Shown here: positions 1,770 through 10,461 of the stretch, piece after piece
Layout of the letters: every line of letters starts with the position of its first letter
How positions within the stretch are numbered: the stretch's first letter is position 1
IMG/VR virus record: IMGVR_UViG_3300028596_000080
Location: 1 to 20,008 of that record
Length of the DNA stretch: 20,008 nt
Source: a virus
Direction: 5' to 3' (one strand)
Translations under genes and position numbers: made by a program
The notes under the pieces: generated by a model
Database searches by the model: none
Told to the model about the DNA's origin: nothing
What the model saw: only the letters and a program-made list of their open reading frames with translations

Positions 1770-1784
1770 ATTCTCTCCAGATAT

Positions 1785-1806
1785 AAAAACCCGCCAATCG
1801 GCTGGT
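1785..1806 (-). terminator. Weak terminator-like hairpin upstream of the spike gene
   Basis: On the minus strand ACCAGCC and GGCGGGT pair around a GATT loop with one internal A-G mismatch, followed by five T residues. It lies between the SGNH paralogue stop (1824) and the spike start (1769), directly before the spike's GGAGAG. It has the same layout as the elements at 71-94, 5385-5407 and 14420-14441, but a poorer stem. Confidence 0.5.
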
Positions 1807-1823
1807 ATGAGGGGTGCTTTTAC

Positions 1824-3206
1824 CTACTTCGGCTGGTTAGATGATAGCAGCGGGCTCCGCAGGAAGCTTACGGCCGGCACGTACAGGGTGTTCAGGGCAT
1901 AACTGCGTGACTTCAACAACTGGTTGATGCCGGTGTACGGCATGGTCGCGCCAACCGTTGGGTTGAACAAAATCGGTTTCGCGCCAATGGAACGGATGTA
2001 ATCGAGCAGATAGGTGATCTGAAACTGGAAAACCTGCGGCGACCTATCTTGATAGTAGTCATTGGTGGACCCAATCACCCAAACATAATCTGGCTTTTCT
2101 TTGGCCACATCTGCAAAGAAACGAGCCACCATCTGGTCAGTGCGGTTGCCCGGTATCCCCTTGCTGATCACTTGTGCGTTGTCCAGCCGCTCCTTCAGGC
2201 GCTGGTGAATACCGCCACCTGGAGTGGACCAACTGTCCCCCAGAATCACATGCTTGCCACGATTGAGCTCTTCGGCCGGTGAAAGAGCGTGGTAATGAGT
2301 GATCGAGCCTGGGTAGAAGACGGCTGCACCAGATGTTGGCACTGTGACTTTCACCCGAATTTTACTGCCAGCAACAATCGTGTAAGGGATGTCGACGGAG
2401 GCGATGGTGTTGTCTCTGGTAACCTGGGTCCTTGCCACCTCAACCACTTCGCCGGTCTGCCGAAGCTCGGTCACGACGATATCGAGAGTGGCCGCTTGCT
2501 TGCCGTCCTGCTTGCCCGGGTTGATCACAATATTGGTGACCATGTTCTCGTAGAGCGATACGGCAGGCTTCGACGCGACGCCACTGCCGGCGTTTCCTGT
2601 ATGTACAGCGATACCTATGCCATCCTCAGGCTGACCACCAACGTCACCATAGCCGGACGCCGGAGCTGGCATGGACTTGGCGCCGTTGATAGTTTCCCAC
2701 CCAGCCGTCGACTTGAACTGCACTGCACGACGCAGCATCGGCCTTTGCGCTAATTGGCGAAGCGCATCATCCACCACACAGGCGAACCCGAACTGATTGG
2801 CGTGCGCATCATCACGGTAGAAGTTATAGAACTTCCCGCCTTGAGTCATTGCGCGCGGCAGTGGACGGTCGATGGTTACTTGGTCATTCCCGGCATCAGT
2901 GATCACCACAGGGTAATACGTTCTGTCGTCCCCTTCGTAGCAGGCTAGTTGGCCACGGCTGAAGCCTTTGATTGTGGAAAGTGGAATCACCGATCCGCCA
3001 GCAGCAACGGGAGCCCGGGCCGTAGCAGTAATGATGCCCCCCGGCTCATTGGTGTACCACCCCACACCGGACAGCGTGCCGAAGTGAAGGTCGATGAAAG
3101 CGGGATTCAGGTCGTTGTGCTTGATGGGTTCAGCTACAACAGGCGACGCAGCTAGCAGAGCCGTAAACAGGGAAGCCAGGAAACGCATGCGGAACTTTCC
3201 GTCCAT
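1824..3206 (-). CDS. SGNH/GDSL hydrolase-like protein with Sec signal peptide (paralogue of the fibre at 3228-5369)
   Basis: This is a 460-residue protein, or 454 if translation starts at the second ATG (3188). The sequence from that second Met, MRFLASLFTALLAASPVVA, has a basic n-region, a hydrophobic core and V-x-A before EP. That is a textbook signal peptide, predicting export across the inner membrane. The rest is paralogous to the upstream fibre, sharing LNPAFIDLHFG, YNFYRDDAHAN and NRGKHVILGDSW. SGNH block I is GDSW (Ser325 in 460-residue numbering), a block-II-like segment is GIPGNRTDQ, and block III is GSTNDYY (Asn382). No DxxH block V is visible and the protein ends soon after KSRSYALN. 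The fibre's anchor is absent. The substrate could be an acetyl group on LPS or capsule, but that is inference. Both starts have only weak GGA-type ribosome sites. Confidence 0.75.
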   Translation of the reverse strand: MDGKFRMRFLASLFTALLAASPVVAEPIKHNDLNPAFIDLHFGTLSGVGWYTNEPGGIITATARAPVAAGGSVIPLSTIKGFSRGQLACYEGDDRTYYPVVITDAGNDQVTIDRPLPRAMTQGGKFYNFYRDDAHANQFGFACVVDDALRQLAQRPMLRRAVQFKSTAGWETINGAKSMPAPASGYGDVGGQPEDGIGIAVHTGNAGSGVASKPAVSLYENMVTNIVINPGKQDGKQAATLDIVVTELRQTGEVVEVARTQVTRDNTIASVDIPYTIVAGSKIRVKVTVPTSGAAVFYPGSITHYHALSPAEELNRGKHVILGDSWSTPGGGIHQRLKERLDNAQVISKGIPGNRTDQMVARFFADVAKEKPDYVWVIGSTNDYYQDRSPQVFQFQITYLLDYIRSIGAKPILFNPTVGATMPYTGINQLLKSRSYALNTLYVPAVSFLRSPLLSSNQPK

Positions 3207-3220
3207 GAGTAGTTCCGCAT
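3187..3220 (-). promoter_or_regulatory. Perfect 10-bp inverted repeat enclosing the SGNH paralogue starts
   Basis: The arms ATGCGGAACT and AGTTCCGCAT (minus strand) are perfect reverse complements separated by 14 nt. The loop holds the ATG at 3206. The distal arm overlaps the weak ribosome site of the second start and ends in the AT of its ATG (3188). Folded as RNA it would occlude the second start and present the first in the loop. No T run follows, so it does not look like a terminator. The structure is directly visible; a translational control role is inference. Confidence 0.5.
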
Positions 3221-3227
3221 TATCACA

Positions 3228-5369
3228 TCACACCAATGATTGCTGCCAGCAGATGTCGGCCAAAATCCAGGCGGTGATCGGCGACCCCGTACCATTGGTC
3301 ACGCTCAATTTCACGAACCGCAAAGCGGTGTCAGTCCTGGGTAGCGGGAAGTCATTGGTGACGCCTATGCCCGTGAAAGTCGAGAGATCGACCGCGCCAG
3401 CGCCATCGGCAGCCGAGCTGTACTCCAGCTTCAGCGTCATGCCTACAAGTGATTGAGTCAGGAAGCGGAGCATCGCCGGCAGCCTAGTTTGCCCCGGGCT
3501 CACTGCCAGGACTGTGGTAGCACCAGCCGCTACAGTGACCGATCCCGAGTAGGTGAAGTTGCGTTGTACGCCCCCAGGGCCGTTAGGCCCCAGCTCCTGC
3601 GGAACGTAACGGATATTGAGCGCGTAGCTCCGCGACTTGGTCAGTTGCTCCGGCACATAGCTGATCGCGCCTACCGTGGCATTGAAGAAGATCGGTTGAG
3701 CGCCAATTTGCTGGATCATGTTGCGCAACTGGTGGATCTGCTGCTCAAAATCAGCATTGCTCACATCGGCGTAGTAATCATTCGTGCCGACCATGACCCA
3801 TACGTAATCGGGGTTCTGCGGGACTACATCCGTTTGAAAGCGAGCGATCAACTGCGACGCCCGGTTTCCTGGCACGCCTGCACTGACCACGGAGGCCTTG
3901 TTGAGTCGAGCAATCAGTCGGTTGTGGAAATCGCCACCACTGGTGAACCAGCTGTCGCCAAGCAATACATGCTTCCCTCTGTTGACGTCGTTCAGATACC
4001 CGCCAACACGGTTGTGCATCATCGCGCCGATGTAGAAGCGCCAAGGCCCAGAGTTTGGAGAGAGAACACGGACGCGAATGTAGCTTCCCGGGCGGGAGGT
4101 GTACTTGAGCTCCTGCAAGCCTGCCGCTCCCCATGCTGGGGTGACAGCGAGGAAGGCGATGGTCTGCGTCAAGCCCTCGGCCGTTGTCTCCTCGACGCCA
4201 ATGTTGACCGTTCCAGTGAAACCACCGTCTCGGGTGCCTGGGTTGATGTAGATTTGCGTGACGTAGTCACCGCCGGTCAGGGCGACGGGGCGTGATAAAG
4301 CGCCAGCGTTCGCCGCCGATGCGTGCTGGACCAGAATAGAGCGCTCGCCAATTGCTGCGCCGCTCGGGTTGTCGTAGCTCGTGGCGGTTTGCGACGTAAG
4401 CGTAGCGCCAAGAACTGGAGTCCATACGGAAGCATCTTTCGCCTGGTACTCGGTGCGCATCAGTCGCTTTTTGCTGAGTTGCCTCAGGCCGTCATCACAC
4501 ACCGCATTGAAGCCATACGTGTTGGCGTGAGCGTCATCCCGGTAGAAGTTGTACAGCAGCGATCCATTGGCGACTGGAGCCGGGAGCGGAAGTGCCATCG
4601 TGAGCGTCAGGGTGCCGATCAGCTTGATCACCGACGTGTAGTACTCGCCATTTGTGGCCAAGTACACTACAAGCTGCCCACTGTAGAGGCCTGTAACGTT
4701 GTTCACCGTGATGGTGTTTGACGTTGATCCGGTCACAGTGTGAGGAACAATGTTGCCTGGCTCAGAAGCAGTCCATCCAACACCCTGCAGAATTCCGAAG
4801 TGCAGGTCGATCAGAGCGGGCTCAAGTGTGTTGCCGAATAGACGATTGACATTCCCTGCTGCAGCGATGGCGCTCGCATTGGCTTGAATCTGCGTTGCTT
4901 GAGACAGGTTCACTGCCTCAATAGCGGAAAGATCGGCATCGACCGTGCTCCCCCCCCTATGCACCATCGTCGCGCCAGTCGAAGAGGCCAACGCCTGGCG
5001 CAAGGCGGCATCCCCGACAGCCTGAAGCTTTGGTGCATCCGTGGCCCAGGTCCCGGTCAGTGTCAGCGGGATATCCGCAGCATTGATCACCCTGTACAAC
5101 TCGCCATCACGCTGAACCAGCTGGGTTTGCCGATCTACGACGATGCCGGCGCCATAAATCACGTAGACCGACTCATAGCCCTGCGCGATCAGGTAGTCAG
5201 TTACTTGCTGCATGATCCCGCGCCAGGACTTCAACGGCACGCCAAGACGGCTCAGATACTCGGCCAGAGGTCCATTGAGCAGTAAGTCGATGATACTGGT
5301 ATTGTCGTAGAGGTCGCGGGGATCGCTGGAGCCATCCGGTTCAACGGGGTTGCCAGTGTTGTAGCGCAT
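3228..5369 (-). CDS. Anchored tail fibre/spike with SGNH-hydrolase-like domain
   Basis: This 713-residue fibre probably binds and may deacylate a surface polysaccharide. Residues 1-135 form a tail-attachment region starting MRYNTGNPVEPDGSSDPRDL, a motif shared by many Pseudomonas phage fibres, followed by the segment LYRVINAADIPLTLTG. A helical linker spans about 115-175. The region shared with the downstream paralogue runs from about 182 to 565 and includes YNFYRDDAHAN near 273. SGNH block I is GDSW (Ser473), a block-II-like segment is GVPGNRAS (Gly501), and block III is GTNDYY (Asn530). No DxxH block V is seen. Residues about 585-713 form an extra beta-rich C-terminal domain absent from the paralogue. 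ATG 5369 is chosen because CCGGAGAATCT precedes it. A GTG at 5384 would place that ribosome site inside the coding region. Confidence 0.8.
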   Translation of the reverse strand: MRYNTGNPVEPDGSSDPRDLYDNTSIIDLLLNGPLAEYLSRLGVPLKSWRGIMQQVTDYLIAQGYESVYVIYGAGIVVDRQTQLVQRDGELYRVINAADIPLTLTGTWATDAPKLQAVGDAALRQALASSTGATMVHRGGSTVDADLSAIEAVNLSQATQIQANASAIAAAGNVNRLFGNTLEPALIDLHFGILQGVGWTASEPGNIVPHTVTGSTSNTITVNNVTGLYSGQLVVYLATNGEYYTSVIKLIGTLTLTMALPLPAPVANGSLLYNFYRDDAHANTYGFNAVCDDGLRQLSKKRLMRTEYQAKDASVWTPVLGATLTSQTATSYDNPSGAAIGERSILVQHASAANAGALSRPVALTGGDYVTQIYINPGTRDGGFTGTVNIGVEETTAEGLTQTIAFLAVTPAWGAAGLQELKYTSRPGSYIRVRVLSPNSGPWRFYIGAMMHNRVGGYLNDVNRGKHVLLGDSWFTSGGDFHNRLIARLNKASVVSAGVPGNRASQLIARFQTDVVPQNPDYVWVMVGTNDYYADVSNADFEQQIHQLRNMIQQIGAQPIFFNATVGAISYVPEQLTKSRSYALNIRYVPQELGPNGPGGVQRNFTYSGSVTVAAGATTVLAVSPGQTRLPAMLRFLTQSLVGMTLKLEYSSAADGAGAVDLSTFTGIGVTNDFPLPRTDTALRFVKLSVTNGTGSPITAWILADICWQQSLV

Positions 5370-5384
5370 AGATTCTCCGGGCAC

Positions 5385-5407
5385 AAAAAGGCCCGCGCTA
5401 GGCGGGC
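5385..5407 (-). terminator. Terminator-like hairpin between the tip protein and the fibre
   Basis: On the minus strand GCCCGC and GCGGGC pair perfectly around a five-base loop, followed by CTTTTTG (five T). It lies downstream of the tip gene stop (5428) and immediately before the fibre's GGAG and ATG 5369. Confidence 0.75.
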
Positions 5408-5427: not shown

Positions 5428-8139
5428 TCATGCCGGCGGGAAGTTGTCGTCGTCCAGGTAGACGCGCTCGTCGTAGTTCACTGCGGTGACGTTGCAGCTG
5501 ACGGTGCCGCTTGGGTTGACCTCTTTGATCAGTGCGGGATAGCAGAACTTGGCCTTTGGCCCGAACTGGAGCACTGGCGCGTCCATAGCGCTGTTCAGCA
5601 CCGGAACGAAATCCAGACTAGGGATGGTCAGGCGGTAGTCATCGATGCGGGTCGCCACGTAGGGGCCAGAGGCGCTGCCATCACGACGCCGAAGAGCAAT
5701 CCAGTGCTCACCACCTGCCGACCAGTCGAAACGCTCTGAGGAAACTAGCATGTGCTGGCTACCCAGCTGCGCATACCCCTTGAGCATTGCGCTCTGGCCG
5801 TAACCCGGCGTGGTATCGCCAAGCAGCGCGTAGTCGAGATATCCGCTATTGAGCGCGTCCAGCTCCGTGGTAAAGCTGTACCGCTTGCGCTGGTAGACCT
5901 GCTGCCGGCGGCGGCGCATACCGTAGCGCCAGGCCCGGGTCTCGTCGCTGATTCCCTCTACCTTGACCTTTTCGGTTCTCAGCCCGAGATCGCCGGGCAA
6001 GCGGCATTCAACTGTCTCGACCTGCCAGGTGGTGCCGTCCGTGTACTCAACATCGACACCATCGAAGTCATCCTCTGTGACGTGTTCGGCCTCTCGCTTG
6101 AGTGACTTGGTCATCACCTGAGGGTTATAGATGTGGTCGAAGTCCGGGCCGCGCGGCTCATCACGCACCGGGCGAATCAGGCCTCGATCAATCGTCAGCT
6201 CGGAGAATCCAACTTGAAGAGCTTCGATCATGCAGGCTTTGACCGTGCTGGCCGAGTCGATCGTCCGGTCGTAGTAGTCGCCGCGGGCAGTCCAGATCGC
6301 CTGCAGGCGGTCCAACTCGTCAAGATCCAGGTCTGAATCCCCATCCTCCACCGAGTATCCGACGCTCTGCGCGACATATCCAATCCAGGCCGCGATGTCA
6401 CGGGTCGGCTCTGGCGCAGTCCATGCTCCGTCACGCCGGGTGCGCAGCTTGCGCATGGCGATCACCGATACCTGGCTCTCGGATTGGGATGCGATACGGT
6501 TGCCGCCCTTGACCCGCAGGGCCAGCAACGTCACGCCGGCGTAGCTGGTCGGCGCCGGCAAGTTCGCGCGCAGGCCGTACCACTGGACGGTGTTGGCGTC
6601 CTGGGTGCTAGTTGACTTGGCTCCGATACGCCGCATCCGCACTTCTGGCCGGATATTGCCAGGAATGTCCATGTACTCGGTGAAACCGAGCTGGTCCAGG
6701 GTCATCTGGGTGTAGGTCTTCTTGAACGAAGTCCAGGCGCCTGCTGCAGCGATGTCGCGGTACTGCATCTCGACGGTCACCGACAGGTTGTTCAGGTCGC
6801 CCTTCCCGCCCACATGCACCAAGCCTTGAGGAAAGAAGATGTCCCAGCCAATGCGGCTTGTGGTCGTCCCAGCAGGGCACGCCGGGAACGGGCCAGACCA
6901 GTCGCCCTCTTGCGTTGATCCGTCTAGGGTCAGGACCGCCGCAGAGGTGGTCAGCGCGTCATACCCGGGCCAGGTCGCATCGTTGTCACCCGTAGCGTTC
7001 ATGCGCTCGACCGATATGGCTGACGTACTGGCCGCTGTGATGCGGTAGCGCAGGCCACGGAAGCCAATGCCCATTACCAGGCCGGTACCGAGCGCCAGGC
7101 CGGTTGCAGCGCCTCCGGCGGCCCAGTCGAGCGTCATCTCGTCTGGTGCGGATCCGACGCCAGGGGTGTACGTGGCCACGGTGTAGTTGCCAGCATTCGC
7201 GCCGACGATCTCGATTGGCATACCCACGTACAGCGCGAACTGGTCGAGGTTTCCGCGAATGATGTCCCGGCCGGCGCCGCCGTCGATTACATCCAATGGA
7301 TAACCGACCTCAATGCGAACGATCATGCCGGCGGCCCAGCCTGCCGGGAACTGGCCCGCTCCGGTGGGCACTGTGATGGTTTTCCCAGCGAACTGGTACG
7401 ACTGCGCGCTTGGCACCGGCGTCACGGCATAGGTTGCCTTCAGCTCAATGCCGGCGGCACCGGTAGAGGTGGCCCCAACCTCGGGCGCGGAATGCCACCA
7501 CTTGGCGGCAGTCTCGGCTGACAGGTTGGCGCCCGGTTCGTACAGCGTGAATTCGGCGTCCTCGCCAAGCGAGATAACCGGCGTTTCGCCGATCAGGATG
7601 CTGCTCACCGGAATGTCGTAGCTGCCCTTCCCCACTACCAGCAGCATCTCGATCCACTGCGAACGTGGGTCGTCGAAGTACCTGTTCGGTGGTAAGGCAT
7701 AGTCGGGGTATGGACGCTGTCGGCCGGCGATCTCACGGATGACCGCATTCAGCTTCACCTGGTTGCCCTTTACCGTGGCCAGGCTCAGGTCATTGCCGCG
7801 CTTCGTGTTGCCGCCGCTGTTCAGGGACGGCATCTTGGGCATCAGCGCTCCCAGTACTGCCTTGGCACCGAACACCAGCGCCAAGGTGATCGAGAACGGG
7901 TCAGTGCCCTTCGGCTCCCGGTAGATCTCGACACGATCCTCAGGGCCGAACTCGATAGTCGCCCACTGGGTCGGCAGCGCGCGGTCTCCATTGATGAACA
8001 CGCTTACCGGCAGCTCTGCGGGCTCTACCTCTTTCGGCATGCCGTCAGCACGGAACCAGGCCAGCACGCTCTGCCGGCTTTCCACCGCACGCAACTCTGC
8101 AGGCCCGGCAGCGAGCTTGTTTGGGTAGATTTCGATCAT
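5428..8139 (-). CDS. Host-specificity/central tail tip protein, TipJ/lambda gpJ-like
   Basis: This 903-residue protein should form the central hub of the tail tip that closes the tube and contacts the host envelope. It opens MIEIYPNKLAAGP. A hydrophobic Ala/Gly-rich stretch at about 81-100 is followed by GNDLSLATVKGNQVKLNAVIREI, a sequence style I associate with the TipJ family. The end YDERVYLDDDNFPPA is also typical. It is shorter than lambda gpJ (1132 residues) and seems to lack gpJ's long C-terminal receptor-binding part, consistent with that job having moved to the downstream fibre and spike. Start 8139 overlaps the preceding peptidase stop as ATGA. The frame stays open upstream to 8463, but that extension is Pro/Arg-rich, antisense-like in composition and overlaps the peptidase gene, so it was rejected. 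Confidence 0.85.
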   Translation of the reverse strand: MIEIYPNKLAAGPAELRAVESRQSVLAWFRADGMPKEVEPAELPVSVFINGDRALPTQWATIEFGPEDRVEIYREPKGTDPFSITLALVFGAKAVLGALMPKMPSLNSGGNTKRGNDLSLATVKGNQVKLNAVIREIAGRQRPYPDYALPPNRYFDDPRSQWIEMLLVVGKGSYDIPVSSILIGETPVISLGEDAEFTLYEPGANLSAETAAKWWHSAPEVGATSTGAAGIELKATYAVTPVPSAQSYQFAGKTITVPTGAGQFPAGWAAGMIVRIEVGYPLDVIDGGAGRDIIRGNLDQFALYVGMPIEIVGANAGNYTVATYTPGVGSAPDEMTLDWAAGGAATGLALGTGLVMGIGFRGLRYRITAASTSAISVERMNATGDNDATWPGYDALTTSAAVLTLDGSTQEGDWSGPFPACPAGTTTSRIGWDIFFPQGLVHVGGKGDLNNLSVTVEMQYRDIAAAGAWTSFKKTYTQMTLDQLGFTEYMDIPGNIRPEVRMRRIGAKSTSTQDANTVQWYGLRANLPAPTSYAGVTLLALRVKGGNRIASQSESQVSVIAMRKLRTRRDGAWTAPEPTRDIAAWIGYVAQSVGYSVEDGDSDLDLDELDRLQAIWTARGDYYDRTIDSASTVKACMIEALQVGFSELTIDRGLIRPVRDEPRGPDFDHIYNPQVMTKSLKREAEHVTEDDFDGVDVEYTDGTTWQVETVECRLPGDLGLRTEKVKVEGISDETRAWRYGMRRRRQQVYQRKRYSFTTELDALNSGYLDYALLGDTTPGYGQSAMLKGYAQLGSQHMLVSSERFDWSAGGEHWIALRRRDGSASGPYVATRIDDYRLTIPSLDFVPVLNSAMDAPVLQFGPKAKFCYPALIKEVNPSGTVSCNVTAVNYDERVYLDDDNFPPA

Positions 8140-8531
8140 TCCCGGTCTCGGTAGTAGAGGACAGTGTTGTGGTCGCGCTTCCACTGGGAAATCGGCAGGC
8201 AGCGGGCACCGCGTGTGGGGTTGATTTCGAGGATCTTGAGCCGGCCACCAGCCTCGACGACCAGGGCAACGTGCACGCAGATGTGCCCGCGCATCACGGC
8301 AGCGATGGCGCCATGCTCCGGCTGGCACACTTCCATGTGCACGGTTTCTTCCCGGTACGCCCGGGTGAACTCCCGCGGATCGGTGTTGCGTACATGCCCC
8401 CAGCTCGGCAGCAGACGTTTGCCCAGGTGCAGGTGGCGCACCTCCCTGACCAGGCCCCAGCAATCGAATATTTCCGGACCGCGAGCGCCGTCCTCATACC
8501 TGCAGGACAGGTACTTGTTGATCCATTCCAT
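8136..8531 (-). CDS. NlpC/P60 family peptidase, tail-tip assembly (lambda gpK C-terminal domain-like)
   Basis: This 131-residue protein is a single NlpC/P60 cysteine peptidase domain. The catalytic Cys24 lies in FDCWGL, and the probable catalytic His87 lies in CVHVALVVE after GHI. Asn104 in LEINP is a candidate third residue (inference). Lambda gpK couples such a domain to a JAMM/Mov34 domain, which is absent here. The family acts in tail-tip assembly or local peptidoglycan cleavage at DNA entry. ATG 8531 is chosen because AAGGG precedes it. A longer in-frame start at 8693 would run across the end of the DUF1833 gene. It lies 11 nt downstream of the DUF1833 stop and overlaps the tip gene by four bases. 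Confidence 0.8.
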   Translation of the reverse strand: MEWINKYLSCRYEDGARGPEIFDCWGLVREVRHLHLGKRLLPSWGHVRNTDPREFTRAYREETVHMEVCQPEHGAIAAVMRGHICVHVALVVEAGGRLKILEINPTRGARCLPISQWKRDHNTVLYYRDRE

Positions 8532-8542
8532 AGGGGAAACCC

Positions 8543-9040
8543 TTAGAGATATTTGAGGCCGGGGAAACGCTTGGTGTTCGCAATGTCCCGTGGAAACGCC
8601 GTGCCGATCATGTCGAAAAACCCGCACTGCAAGGTGGCCTGGTTCTGCTCGAAGGAATCGCTGTCGACCGACATGCGATAGGGCCTCTCGCATGGGGCCG
8701 ATAGGTTGCTGGCCAGGTACACCCTGTATGTTGCGGTTACCCTGGCGATCGCATCCAGCGCCTCATCTGCACGCTGCATGACCTCGCCGGTGGTGTTGTC
8801 CACGCCGAATGCTAGAGCCTGGTTGCCCTTGTTGTTCTTCTGCGGGAGCGCGATGCTGATGTTCGCTGCGGTGAAGGTGATCAAGCGCCCGTCTTCAGTG
8901 CCGCAAACACGGTCCTTGAAGCCATTGCAGATCAGCACAGGCGAATCCCATGCCGGACAGGTGATTTCCAGCGTCCGGACGAACGCCTCCTTACCGCCAG
9001 AGGCCAGGGCCTCGCGGTAGGTGTCTTCGAGAATTGTCAT
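8543..9040 (-). CDS. DUF1833 family minor tail protein (lambda gpL position)
   Basis: This 165-residue protein has the DUF1833 layout: an N-terminal helix (LEDTYREALASGGKEAFV), a beta-sandwich-like middle, and the characteristic C-terminal FPRD...TKRFPGLKYL. These proteins sit directly before the NlpC/P60 and J genes and take the place of the N-terminal part of lambda gpL at the tail tip. Five cysteines (28, 38, 46, 117, 139) are present, which I regard as many for this family. AGGGG lies upstream of ATG 9040, and the preceding small gene stops 9 nt upstream. Confidence 0.8.
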   Translation of the reverse strand: MTILEDTYREALASGGKEAFVRTLEITCPAWDSPVLICNGFKDRVCGTEDGRLITFTAANISIALPQKNNKGNQALAFGVDNTTGEVMQRADEALDAIARVTATYRVYLASNLSAPCERPYRMSVDSDSFEQNQATLQCGFFDMIGTAFPRDIANTKRFPGLKYL

Positions 9041-9049
9041 GGTTTACCC

Positions 9050-9286
9050 CTATGCGAATACTCGCCACGGGGTGTTCGGGCTCAGTTGCTCGATACCCGC
9101 CGGCCAGACAATAGACCCAGTGCTGCGCACGTTGGCGTGGTAGCCTGGCAGCGCCTCAACGCTCTCGCCATCCACAAGCACGCGATAAATCACACCGATC
9201 TCATCGATAGTCACGCCACTCGGCAGGGCTCCCAGGGCAGCTTGCATAGCCTCAGCGGTGGCAGCCCGCAGGTAATAATCGGTCAT
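9050..9286 (-). CDS. Small tail-module protein of unknown function
   Basis: This 78-residue protein opens with MTDYYLRAATAEAMQAAL and contains DEIGVIYRVLVDGESVEALPGYHANV, ending NTPWRVFA. I do not recognise a named family. The pattern suggests a short helix followed by a beta-rich domain. The start overlaps the stop of the preceding lectin-like gene as ATGA, and the stop lies 9 nt before DUF1833, so it is translationally coupled in the tail-tip operon. It may accompany the lectin-like protein as a small chaperone or linker, but that is only inference from position. Confidence 0.7.
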   Translation of the reverse strand: MTDYYLRAATAEAMQAALGALPSGVTIDEIGVIYRVLVDGESVEALPGYHANVRSTGSIVWPAGIEQLSPNTPWRVFA

Positions 9287-10461
9287 GTGGTTAGGGCCTG
9301 CAGTTGAGCGGCGCTGAGCCGGTAGGGGAAGTATTGCATGCGTCGGATGTGACCTGTCATGTGCGCTGTAGTTGTCGCAACGCCGCGCGTTCCAAGTGTC
9401 AAACGGTCAATTGTTGGCAGTGCCACAGGGCCGCTCGGCGCTCCGGTCAACAACCCGGCAGACGAGAACTGCACACCTTCTGCTGCGTCGTACGCAACGG
9501 CCTGTTTTAGAAGAATATTGGGAGCTATAACGCCGCCGAGACTTTGCGCGAATTGCGGAACGTTCGCATCATCCGAAACTTCAGCCCGTGACAATCCCCC
9601 GCTGCTCAAATACAGCATAACCCTAGGGTTGCTGGCGGCTGTACCAAGCATCCCACCAGCAACGCTCAAGACAGTTCTATTAACCGATTCGACGTACAAA
9701 GTACCTTCGCCCGAGTTTAACCATGTTGATGCTGGAACAAAGGCCATGTCAGCGGCTCGGGTAACCTGCGCAGTGGTTGTGGGTATCAATGAGCTTGGCG
9801 CCTCACCAGCTTCGAACTGAGCACCCCATGGATAAAGGCCCGCAACACCATTGCCAGTGTATGAAGCGCCAGATGCGTCGGCCATCTGCACATCGAACGA
9901 TAGCGCTGGCGGCGCGGCTATGGTGGTCGCCACGATCCAGCAGCGATACCAACCGTTCGGCCACAGTTCCATACCTACAGAATCAAGCGTTGCCGTGGCG
10001 GCCTCAATGGTGCCGGTGTCAAGGTTGAACCGCGCAGAGCCTGGGTTTGTCCAGTTGCCGAAAATGTCCGTTTCAAGGTACAGCCGGCGCCCGCTGCCAT
10101 CAGCCTTGGCGAAAACAGATCGGCAGTATTTCGTGCTACCCGCAGCGGTGATGGCGCCCTGGGTGACACGGTGAACCCCGGTGCTGGTGTCCTCGGTGAA
10201 CTTCACAGCGGTTGTACCATCAGGCGCCAGAATGCCTGGCGCGGCTGTCACTGCAAGCCCACCCTTGGCCCACGTCGCGTTGGTGAAGTCGTTTGACCGC
10301 AAGGCCATGTTCACCCGCTGCTGTTCGAAGAGTAGCCCTCTCGTTTCAACCCGAGGGGCGTTGACCGCTGCTACTTCCAACAGATTGGTTGCTGGGTTCA
10401 ACCAGGTACCAGTGGTCGATCGAGTGAAAGTGATGATGTCGGAAAAGCTCTTATCCTGCAT
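9283..10461 (-). CDS. Tail protein with spike-fibre jelly-roll and lectin-like C-terminal domain
   Basis: This 392-residue protein appears to have two parts. Residues about 10-245 have the pattern ITFTRSTTGTW, then RGLLFEQQRVNMALRSNDF, then AQFEAGEAPSSLIPTT. I associate this with 'phage head spike fibre' and carbohydrate-binding-like jelly rolls. Residues about 246-392 look like a concanavalin A/LamG-like fold, ending GHIRRMQYFPYRLSAAQLQAL, a frequent end of that fold. It probably decorates the tail tip and binds a sugar (inference). Its start lies inside the end of the preceding gene (11-base overlap) and its stop overlaps the next start as ATGA. The exact domain names would need a profile search. 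Confidence 0.7.
   Translation of the reverse strand: MQDKSFSDIITFTRSTTGTWLNPATNLLEVAAVNAPRVETRGLLFEQQRVNMALRSNDFTNATWAKGGLAVTAAPGILAPDGTTAVKFTEDTSTGVHRVTQGAITAAGSTKYCRSVFAKADGSGRRLYLETDIFGNWTNPGSARFNLDTGTIEAATATLDSVGMELWPNGWYRCWIVATTIAAPPALSFDVQMADASGASYTGNGVAGLYPWGAQFEAGEAPSSLIPTTTAQVTRAADMAFVPASTWLNSGEGTLYVESVNRTVLSVAGGMLGTAASNPRVMLYLSSGGLSRAEVSDDANVPQFAQSLGGVIAPNILLKQAVAYDAAEGVQFSSAGLLTGAPSGPVALPTIDRLTLGTRGVATTTAHMTGHIRRMQYFPYRLSAAQLQALTT

Follow-up and report, generated by a model that had tools for sequence, protein, structure and literature searches.

The window, a stretch of 20,008 bases that constitutes an IMG/VR virus record, covers the minus-strand head-tail region of a D3-like Pseudomonas siphophage or prophage. 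On that strand the tail-tip J protein is followed by a tail fibre (3228-5384), a gene that we term X (1824-3188) and a spike (150-1769). X encodes 454 amino acids plus a stop codon and belongs to the SGNH (GDSL) hydrolases, matching Lipase_GDSL_2 (PF13472) at 47.1 bits (cut-off 32.9), and its C-terminal part aligns with a TesA-like SGNH profile at an hhalign probability of 99.8. Its product is 44% identical to the neighbouring fibre over residues 27-445. The fibre joins a D3-type N-terminal anchor to the same, probably permuted, SGNH core and an extra C-terminal domain, and is probably of the SGNH tail-fibre/tailspike deacetylase kind. The original prediction that X is a fibre paralogue devoid of this anchor is confirmed: the first ~177 residues of the fibre give hits to phage tail-fibre PHROGs as well as to D3 orf27, and X gives no match to either. 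The fibre's last ~115 residues, which form its C-terminal domain, are likewise missing from X. The gene beyond X codes for a 539-aa YadA-like repeat spike located between X and the endolysin. In contig L048 a protein with a spike-like C-terminus (VFSDGxVWRVG) is encoded between J and the fibre (1777-3681) and L047 lacks the repeat spike gene, which thus is apparently mobile.

An open reading frame is indeed present on the minus strand at 1824-3206, as had been noted, but comparison of orthologues does not bear out the proposed start at 3206 and places it very probably at the ATG at 3188. In the 80% identical Pseudomonas orthologue L016 the upstream ATG runs into a stop codon after three codons (ATG GAC GGA TAG) and the second ATG, equivalent to 3188, is preserved; hence translation of this copy is possible only from the latter. 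The upstream ATG is out of frame in L049 and absent from L050. The DNA around the start is predicted to form an RNA hairpin (3187-3220, minus strand), with a 10-bp stem (3211-3220 paired with 3187-3196), an SD-like GGACGGA in its loop and the start codon within the stem at its 3' foot. The arrangement of hairpin and SD-like loop also occurs in L004, L046-L050 and L057. Pairing is retained in all nine orthologues, each with an uninterrupted run of seven or more base pairs, and at four of these pairs both partners have changed; when the 3' strands were reassigned, just 12 of 5040 arrangements paired equally well. As the thermodynamic z-scores are unremarkable (-0.4 to -1.1), the case for the hairpin depends on covariation among few sequences, and the structure, for which no Rfam family was matched, suggests translational control of X.

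Read from 3188, the protein begins with MRFLASLFTALLAASPVVA followed by EP, and residues 1-19 (3132-3188, minus strand) constitute a predicted Sec/SPase-I signal peptide with n-, h- and c-regions and small residues at -3/-1; neither a lipobox nor a twin arginine is found at this N-terminus. We scored signals with a home-made scorer that took 28 E. coli signal peptides as positives; under leave-one-out these have a median of 12.1 and a 10th percentile of 6.6. By this measure the window's X scores 5.3, a moderate value somewhat under the 10th percentile of the positives. Its orthologues score 6.1-14.1 with the exception of L050 (-0.1), and the 16 other genes of the window lie far below X at -1.5 or less. 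Signal prediction with this scorer sets X well apart from its neighbours, although the score itself is moderate and L050 fails. More telling than the scorer value, in our opinion, is the conservation of signal properties despite strong sequence change: between the window and L046 the region has a pN of 0.27 and a pS of 0.75, yet all copies keep MR, then a hydrophobic stretch, then small residues, with a small-x-small end clear in each except L050 and a predicted cleavage site that shifts by one residue among copies. The signal peptide that had been anticipated for X is thus borne out by features shared across its orthologues, if weakly in L050.

The catalytic core of X displays the first three SGNH blocks in their usual order, namely GDSW (block I, residues 317-320, 2229-2240) with the nucleophile Ser319, GIPGNR (block II, residues 344-349, 2142-2159) with Gly344, and TND (block III, residues 375-377, 2058-2066) with Asn376. 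These take the forms GDSW, GxxGNR and TND/TNN across all copies of X; block I is invariant in 23 of 23 alignment rows, and Ser319, Gly344 and Asn376 are invariant in every row. No canonical block V (DxxH) follows block III, that is, past residue 377. A motif of the form D-x-H-x-N-x-x-G is found ahead of the serine motif instead, at residues 127-134, within which DDAHAN (residues 126-131, 2796-2813) supplies His129, and a helix (residues 132-148 in the AlphaFold2 secondary structure) comes after it. His129 is invariant in all rows that cover the position, and several fibres have HPN here, as in the classical block V. Asp127 is invariant in all nine copies of X and position 126 is Asn in five of the nine; the catalytic Asp may be either Asp126 or Asp127. 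Based on this arrangement it seems likely that X and the fibre are circularly permuted SGNH enzymes whose histidine motif precedes the serine motif. Because profile searches with the N-terminal part of X recovered no canonical block V, it is the motif and the helix that make the case for permutation. The same H-S-G-N residue order with a D-x-H block V has been described in AlgJ and AlgX (PMC4148444).

Between the histidine and serine motifs lies a beta-rich insert resembling a jelly roll or carbohydrate-binding module (residues 151-303, 2280-2738). When the AlphaFold2 model of X (pLDDT 85.7, pTM 0.84) was compared with the PDB using Foldseek, CE2 carbohydrate esterases ranked first, followed by CBM22 and TesA, the last aligning over only ~125 of 175-180 residues; CBM22/CBM16 and CE2 are the matches to the insert. 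The model thus recalls the CE2 enzymes (PDB 2waa, 2wao), its best PDB matches, which unite a jelly roll with an SGNH domain, but the chains as a whole align only loosely (query-length TM 0.19-0.21) and, unlike in CE2, block V of X comes before the jelly roll. The mature protein has just two cysteines, Cys83 (2940-2942) and Cys137 (2778-2780), both present in all nine copies. Many fibres carry a cysteine at 83, but the partner at 137 is missing from the compared fibres except the distant L054, the only one to have the pair. A cysteine pair maintained in the putatively exported branch but not in the branch that stays in the cytoplasm would fit an oxidizing compartment, and the two residues may form a disulphide.

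When IMG/VR, the contigs of GTDB genomes and whole genomes were scanned, orthologues of X at 64-99% identity were found in L003/L006 (Pseudomonas sp. GM84), L004, L046-L050, L057 and genome G354, whose protein is identical to that of L046. The signal and the loss of anchor and C-terminal domain are conserved in eight viral or prophage contigs besides the window (the signal being weak in one), and every orthologue sits directly behind a fibre gene. A close X was found in two of 399 Pseudomonas genomes, the family and order genome samples yielded no additional genome with one, and among isolate phage records no X was found, the sole match being a protein of 806 aa from the tail region of Vibrio phage 1.154.O, which shares the domain. 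The GM84 prophage has the same gene order as the window and runs on to endolysin and Rz-like genes. Its fibre (L003/L006, NZ_AKJC01000343) is without its N-terminal half and abuts opposite-strand genes, as a result of either a deletion within a remnant prophage or a join made during assembly, with X, spike and lysis genes intact. A second, decayed fragment of X is also present in GM84 (G001:C43:39452-39760; L013, L014) as pieces of 91% and 82% identity whose middle is missing. In L074 the position directly behind the fibre is held by a different GDSL lipase gene (8009-9427, 473 aa) without a signal peptide.

In phylogenetic trees the X sequences form one clade apart from all fibres, with support of 97/100 and recovery in 98% of bootstrap trees; its stem measures 1.1 changes per site, and dN/dS among pairs of X is ~0.05-0.12, an indicative range since dS is saturated for distant pairs; these values suggest that X is under purifying selection. 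We accordingly rejected the possibility of a recent duplicate in view of the long stem, and that of a pseudogene or fibre fragment in view of the invariant catalytic residues, the purifying selection and the separate clade. X is, as judged from its sequence, an old paralogue of the fibre enzyme that is predicted to be exported. Comparison of the window with L066/L047 revealed near-identity in J (98.1%), the fibre (99.6%) and the fibre-X junction (97.6%), but only 72% identity in X codons 37-454, a discrepancy which indicates that cores of X are swapped between near-identical phages as the start, the signal and the fibre stay. L004 follows the same trend, with a dS of 0.28 in X against 0.05 in the fibre. 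Given these discordant histories within one phage, X need not share the substrate of its fibre.

X lies 39 bp behind the fibre on the same strand. A consensus scan of the window detected no promoter-like site upstream of X, and there is no terminator at the fibre-X junction. A terminator-like hairpin (5391-5407, minus strand) lies just upstream of the fibre gene, where the fibre-X unit would begin, and in L066 and L069 a terminator likewise precedes the fibre and a strong one follows X, so that the pair is bracketed. Fibre and X therefore look like one late transcription unit, and the combination of a short gap without terminator, the bracketing terminators and the lack of a promoter of its own points to late, lytic expression of X. 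Near-identical DNA with TATAAT-like and SD motifs occurs directly before the fibre start in L051 (5370-5440) and L054 (5410-5485), and is a possible fibre promoter; a hydrophobic in-frame leader at this place resembles another signal peptide but, given the near-identity of the DNA and these motifs, was taken to be non-coding.

We also examined the slot between fibre and endolysin in related phages. In D3 it holds three seroconversion genes and PMG1 is similar; AT3-SGNH acetylases occupy it in D3, PMG1, L073 and L075, Wzy-type polymerases in D3, PMG1 and Marin, two annotated polymerases in BUCT566 and a GT2 gene in L076, and the PS-1 slot has no gene. The AT3, MBOAT, Wzy and GT genes of the slot are often on the opposite strand. 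The D3-type slot of JBD44 contains an MBOAT gene paired with one matching PF16822 (ALGX) (gp40-gp41; L081 2328-4939), annotated only as hypothetical and MBOAT, which we consider a probable two-gene surface O-acylation system. Judged by this gene content, the slot is a site for surface-polysaccharide editing genes, those altering the O-antigen of the host among them, and X sits inside it. Phage Sf6 is known to block superinfection by acetylating O-antigen (PMC9558356).

Bringing together the paralogy, the single clade, the conserved signal and catalytic residues, the purifying selection, the gene position, the likely shared unit and the start hairpin, all of which are supported by sequence, we infer export, a disulphide, esterase activity, a substrate, a timing and an effect on adsorption, and consider it reasonably probable that X acts as an exported acyl-esterase, which is produced in late infection and modifies the surface receptor of its own phage. 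Under this proposal X would be an ancient offshoot of the receptor-binding fibre esterase of the same phage and would be translated by the infected cell, probably late, from the fibre-X message. The Sec machinery would export it with removal of the signal peptide, and it would then act in the periplasm or on post-lysis debris, where its Ser319-His129 site, putatively permuted, would strip O-antigen or exopolysaccharide of acyl groups, probably acetyl ones. Alteration of the receptor recognized by the fibre could prevent progeny from adhering to the cell that made them, or to its debris, and reduce adsorption of related phages; being made late, X would reach only new polymer unless it were at the outer surface. 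The fuller scenario, in which a duplicated receptor-binding esterase became a fibre-cotranscribed exported receptor editor with the start hairpin as timing or dosage switch, recombination independent of the fibre and self-receptor editing on the producing cell, is more tentative, and we offer it as possible rather than probable.

The original prediction of an exported derivative of a receptor enzyme acting on surface acyl groups is well supported by the signal, the S/G/N/H residues, the cysteines, the clade and the slot, and its moron or lysogenic-conversion component fares less well. Under the latter, X expressed from the prophage would keep the lysogen surface deacylated, resulting in standing superinfection immunity or a changed antigen in the manner of the D3 cassette. 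Like a moron of this type, X does lie in the D3/PMG1 seroconversion slot, used also by AT3, MBOAT-ALGX and GT2 genes, and the GM84 contig retains X, the spike and the lysis genes despite its halved fibre. However, the consensus scan gave X no promoter and terminator of its own apart from the late genes, X directly trails the fibre within a unit that is terminator-bounded in relatives, and the known conversion genes of the slot are often on the opposite strand. Late lytic use is thus better supported, and we regard lysogenic conversion as unlikely.

Addition rather than removal of acyl groups, by X acting as a periplasmic O-acyltransferase akin to AlgX, AlgJ or PatB, appears very unlikely. X does share with these permuted SGNH O-acetyltransferases the H-S-G-N/Y order, the D-x-H motif (as in AlgJ, PMC4148444) and an inferred periplasmic site, and the MBOAT and ALGX pair of JBD44 occupies the same slot. 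Unlike them, X has a jelly-roll-like insert and a phage-fibre origin and gives no match to PF16822, which JBD44 gp40 does match; no MBOAT or AT3 donor partner was observed beside X at any of its loci, its structural neighbours are esterases, and its closest kin are tail enzymes that act extracellularly without an acyl donor.

We see just as little reason to expect an accessory virion protein whose hydrophobic N-terminus goes unused as a signal. The tail-module position and the identity to the fibre would suit such a protein, but X has no anchor domain, its signal-like features survive strong sequence change in nearly all orthologues, and it has the extra cysteine pair. The earlier remark that a signal peptide does not belong in a tail module is correct for virion proteins, of which X is most likely not one. 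Least credible is a lysis aid that strips peptidoglycan O-acetyl groups in the periplasm so that endolysin can cut: SGNH peptidoglycan O-acetylesterases exist and X immediately precedes the endolysin in L047 and L048, but its descent from an enzyme that binds receptors and has a carbohydrate-binding-like insert, and the action of the remaining slot genes on surface polysaccharide, argue against it.

The exported acyl-esterase that we favour has partial parallels in known systems. SGNH phage tail proteins are active esterases or deacetylases, and X resembles coliphage G7C gp63.1 and the Klebsiella prophage SGNH receptor-binding proteins (PMC13123978) as a phage SGNH/GDSL enzyme of the tail module, but differs in having a signal peptide, no tail anchor or fibre C-terminus, and a block V that precedes block I. 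With the D3/PMG1 cassette (iap, oac, wzy-beta) it shares the slot from a homologous fibre to the endolysin and the expected surface polysaccharide target; whereas the D3 cassette adds acetyl via a membrane AT3-SGNH protein, X is soluble, predicted to be exported, expected to remove acyl groups and situated within the fibre's transcription unit. NanS-p of Stx phages is likewise an SGNH-type O-acetylesterase carried by a phage without being part of the tail, but it is a relative of bacterial NanS and differs from X in family and location (PMC10462455). Our survey of the open-access literature yielded no report of a phage receptor enzyme with an exported paralogue.

Phages carry virion receptor enzymes as well as accessory receptor-changing enzymes, usually of unrelated origin. 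With X as an exported twin of the virion enzyme, the two strategies would have a common ancestor and a common message. Whether a phage strips its own receptor off the cell that produces it can be tested directly with X, which also singles out the D3-type slot for searches for surface-editing genes.
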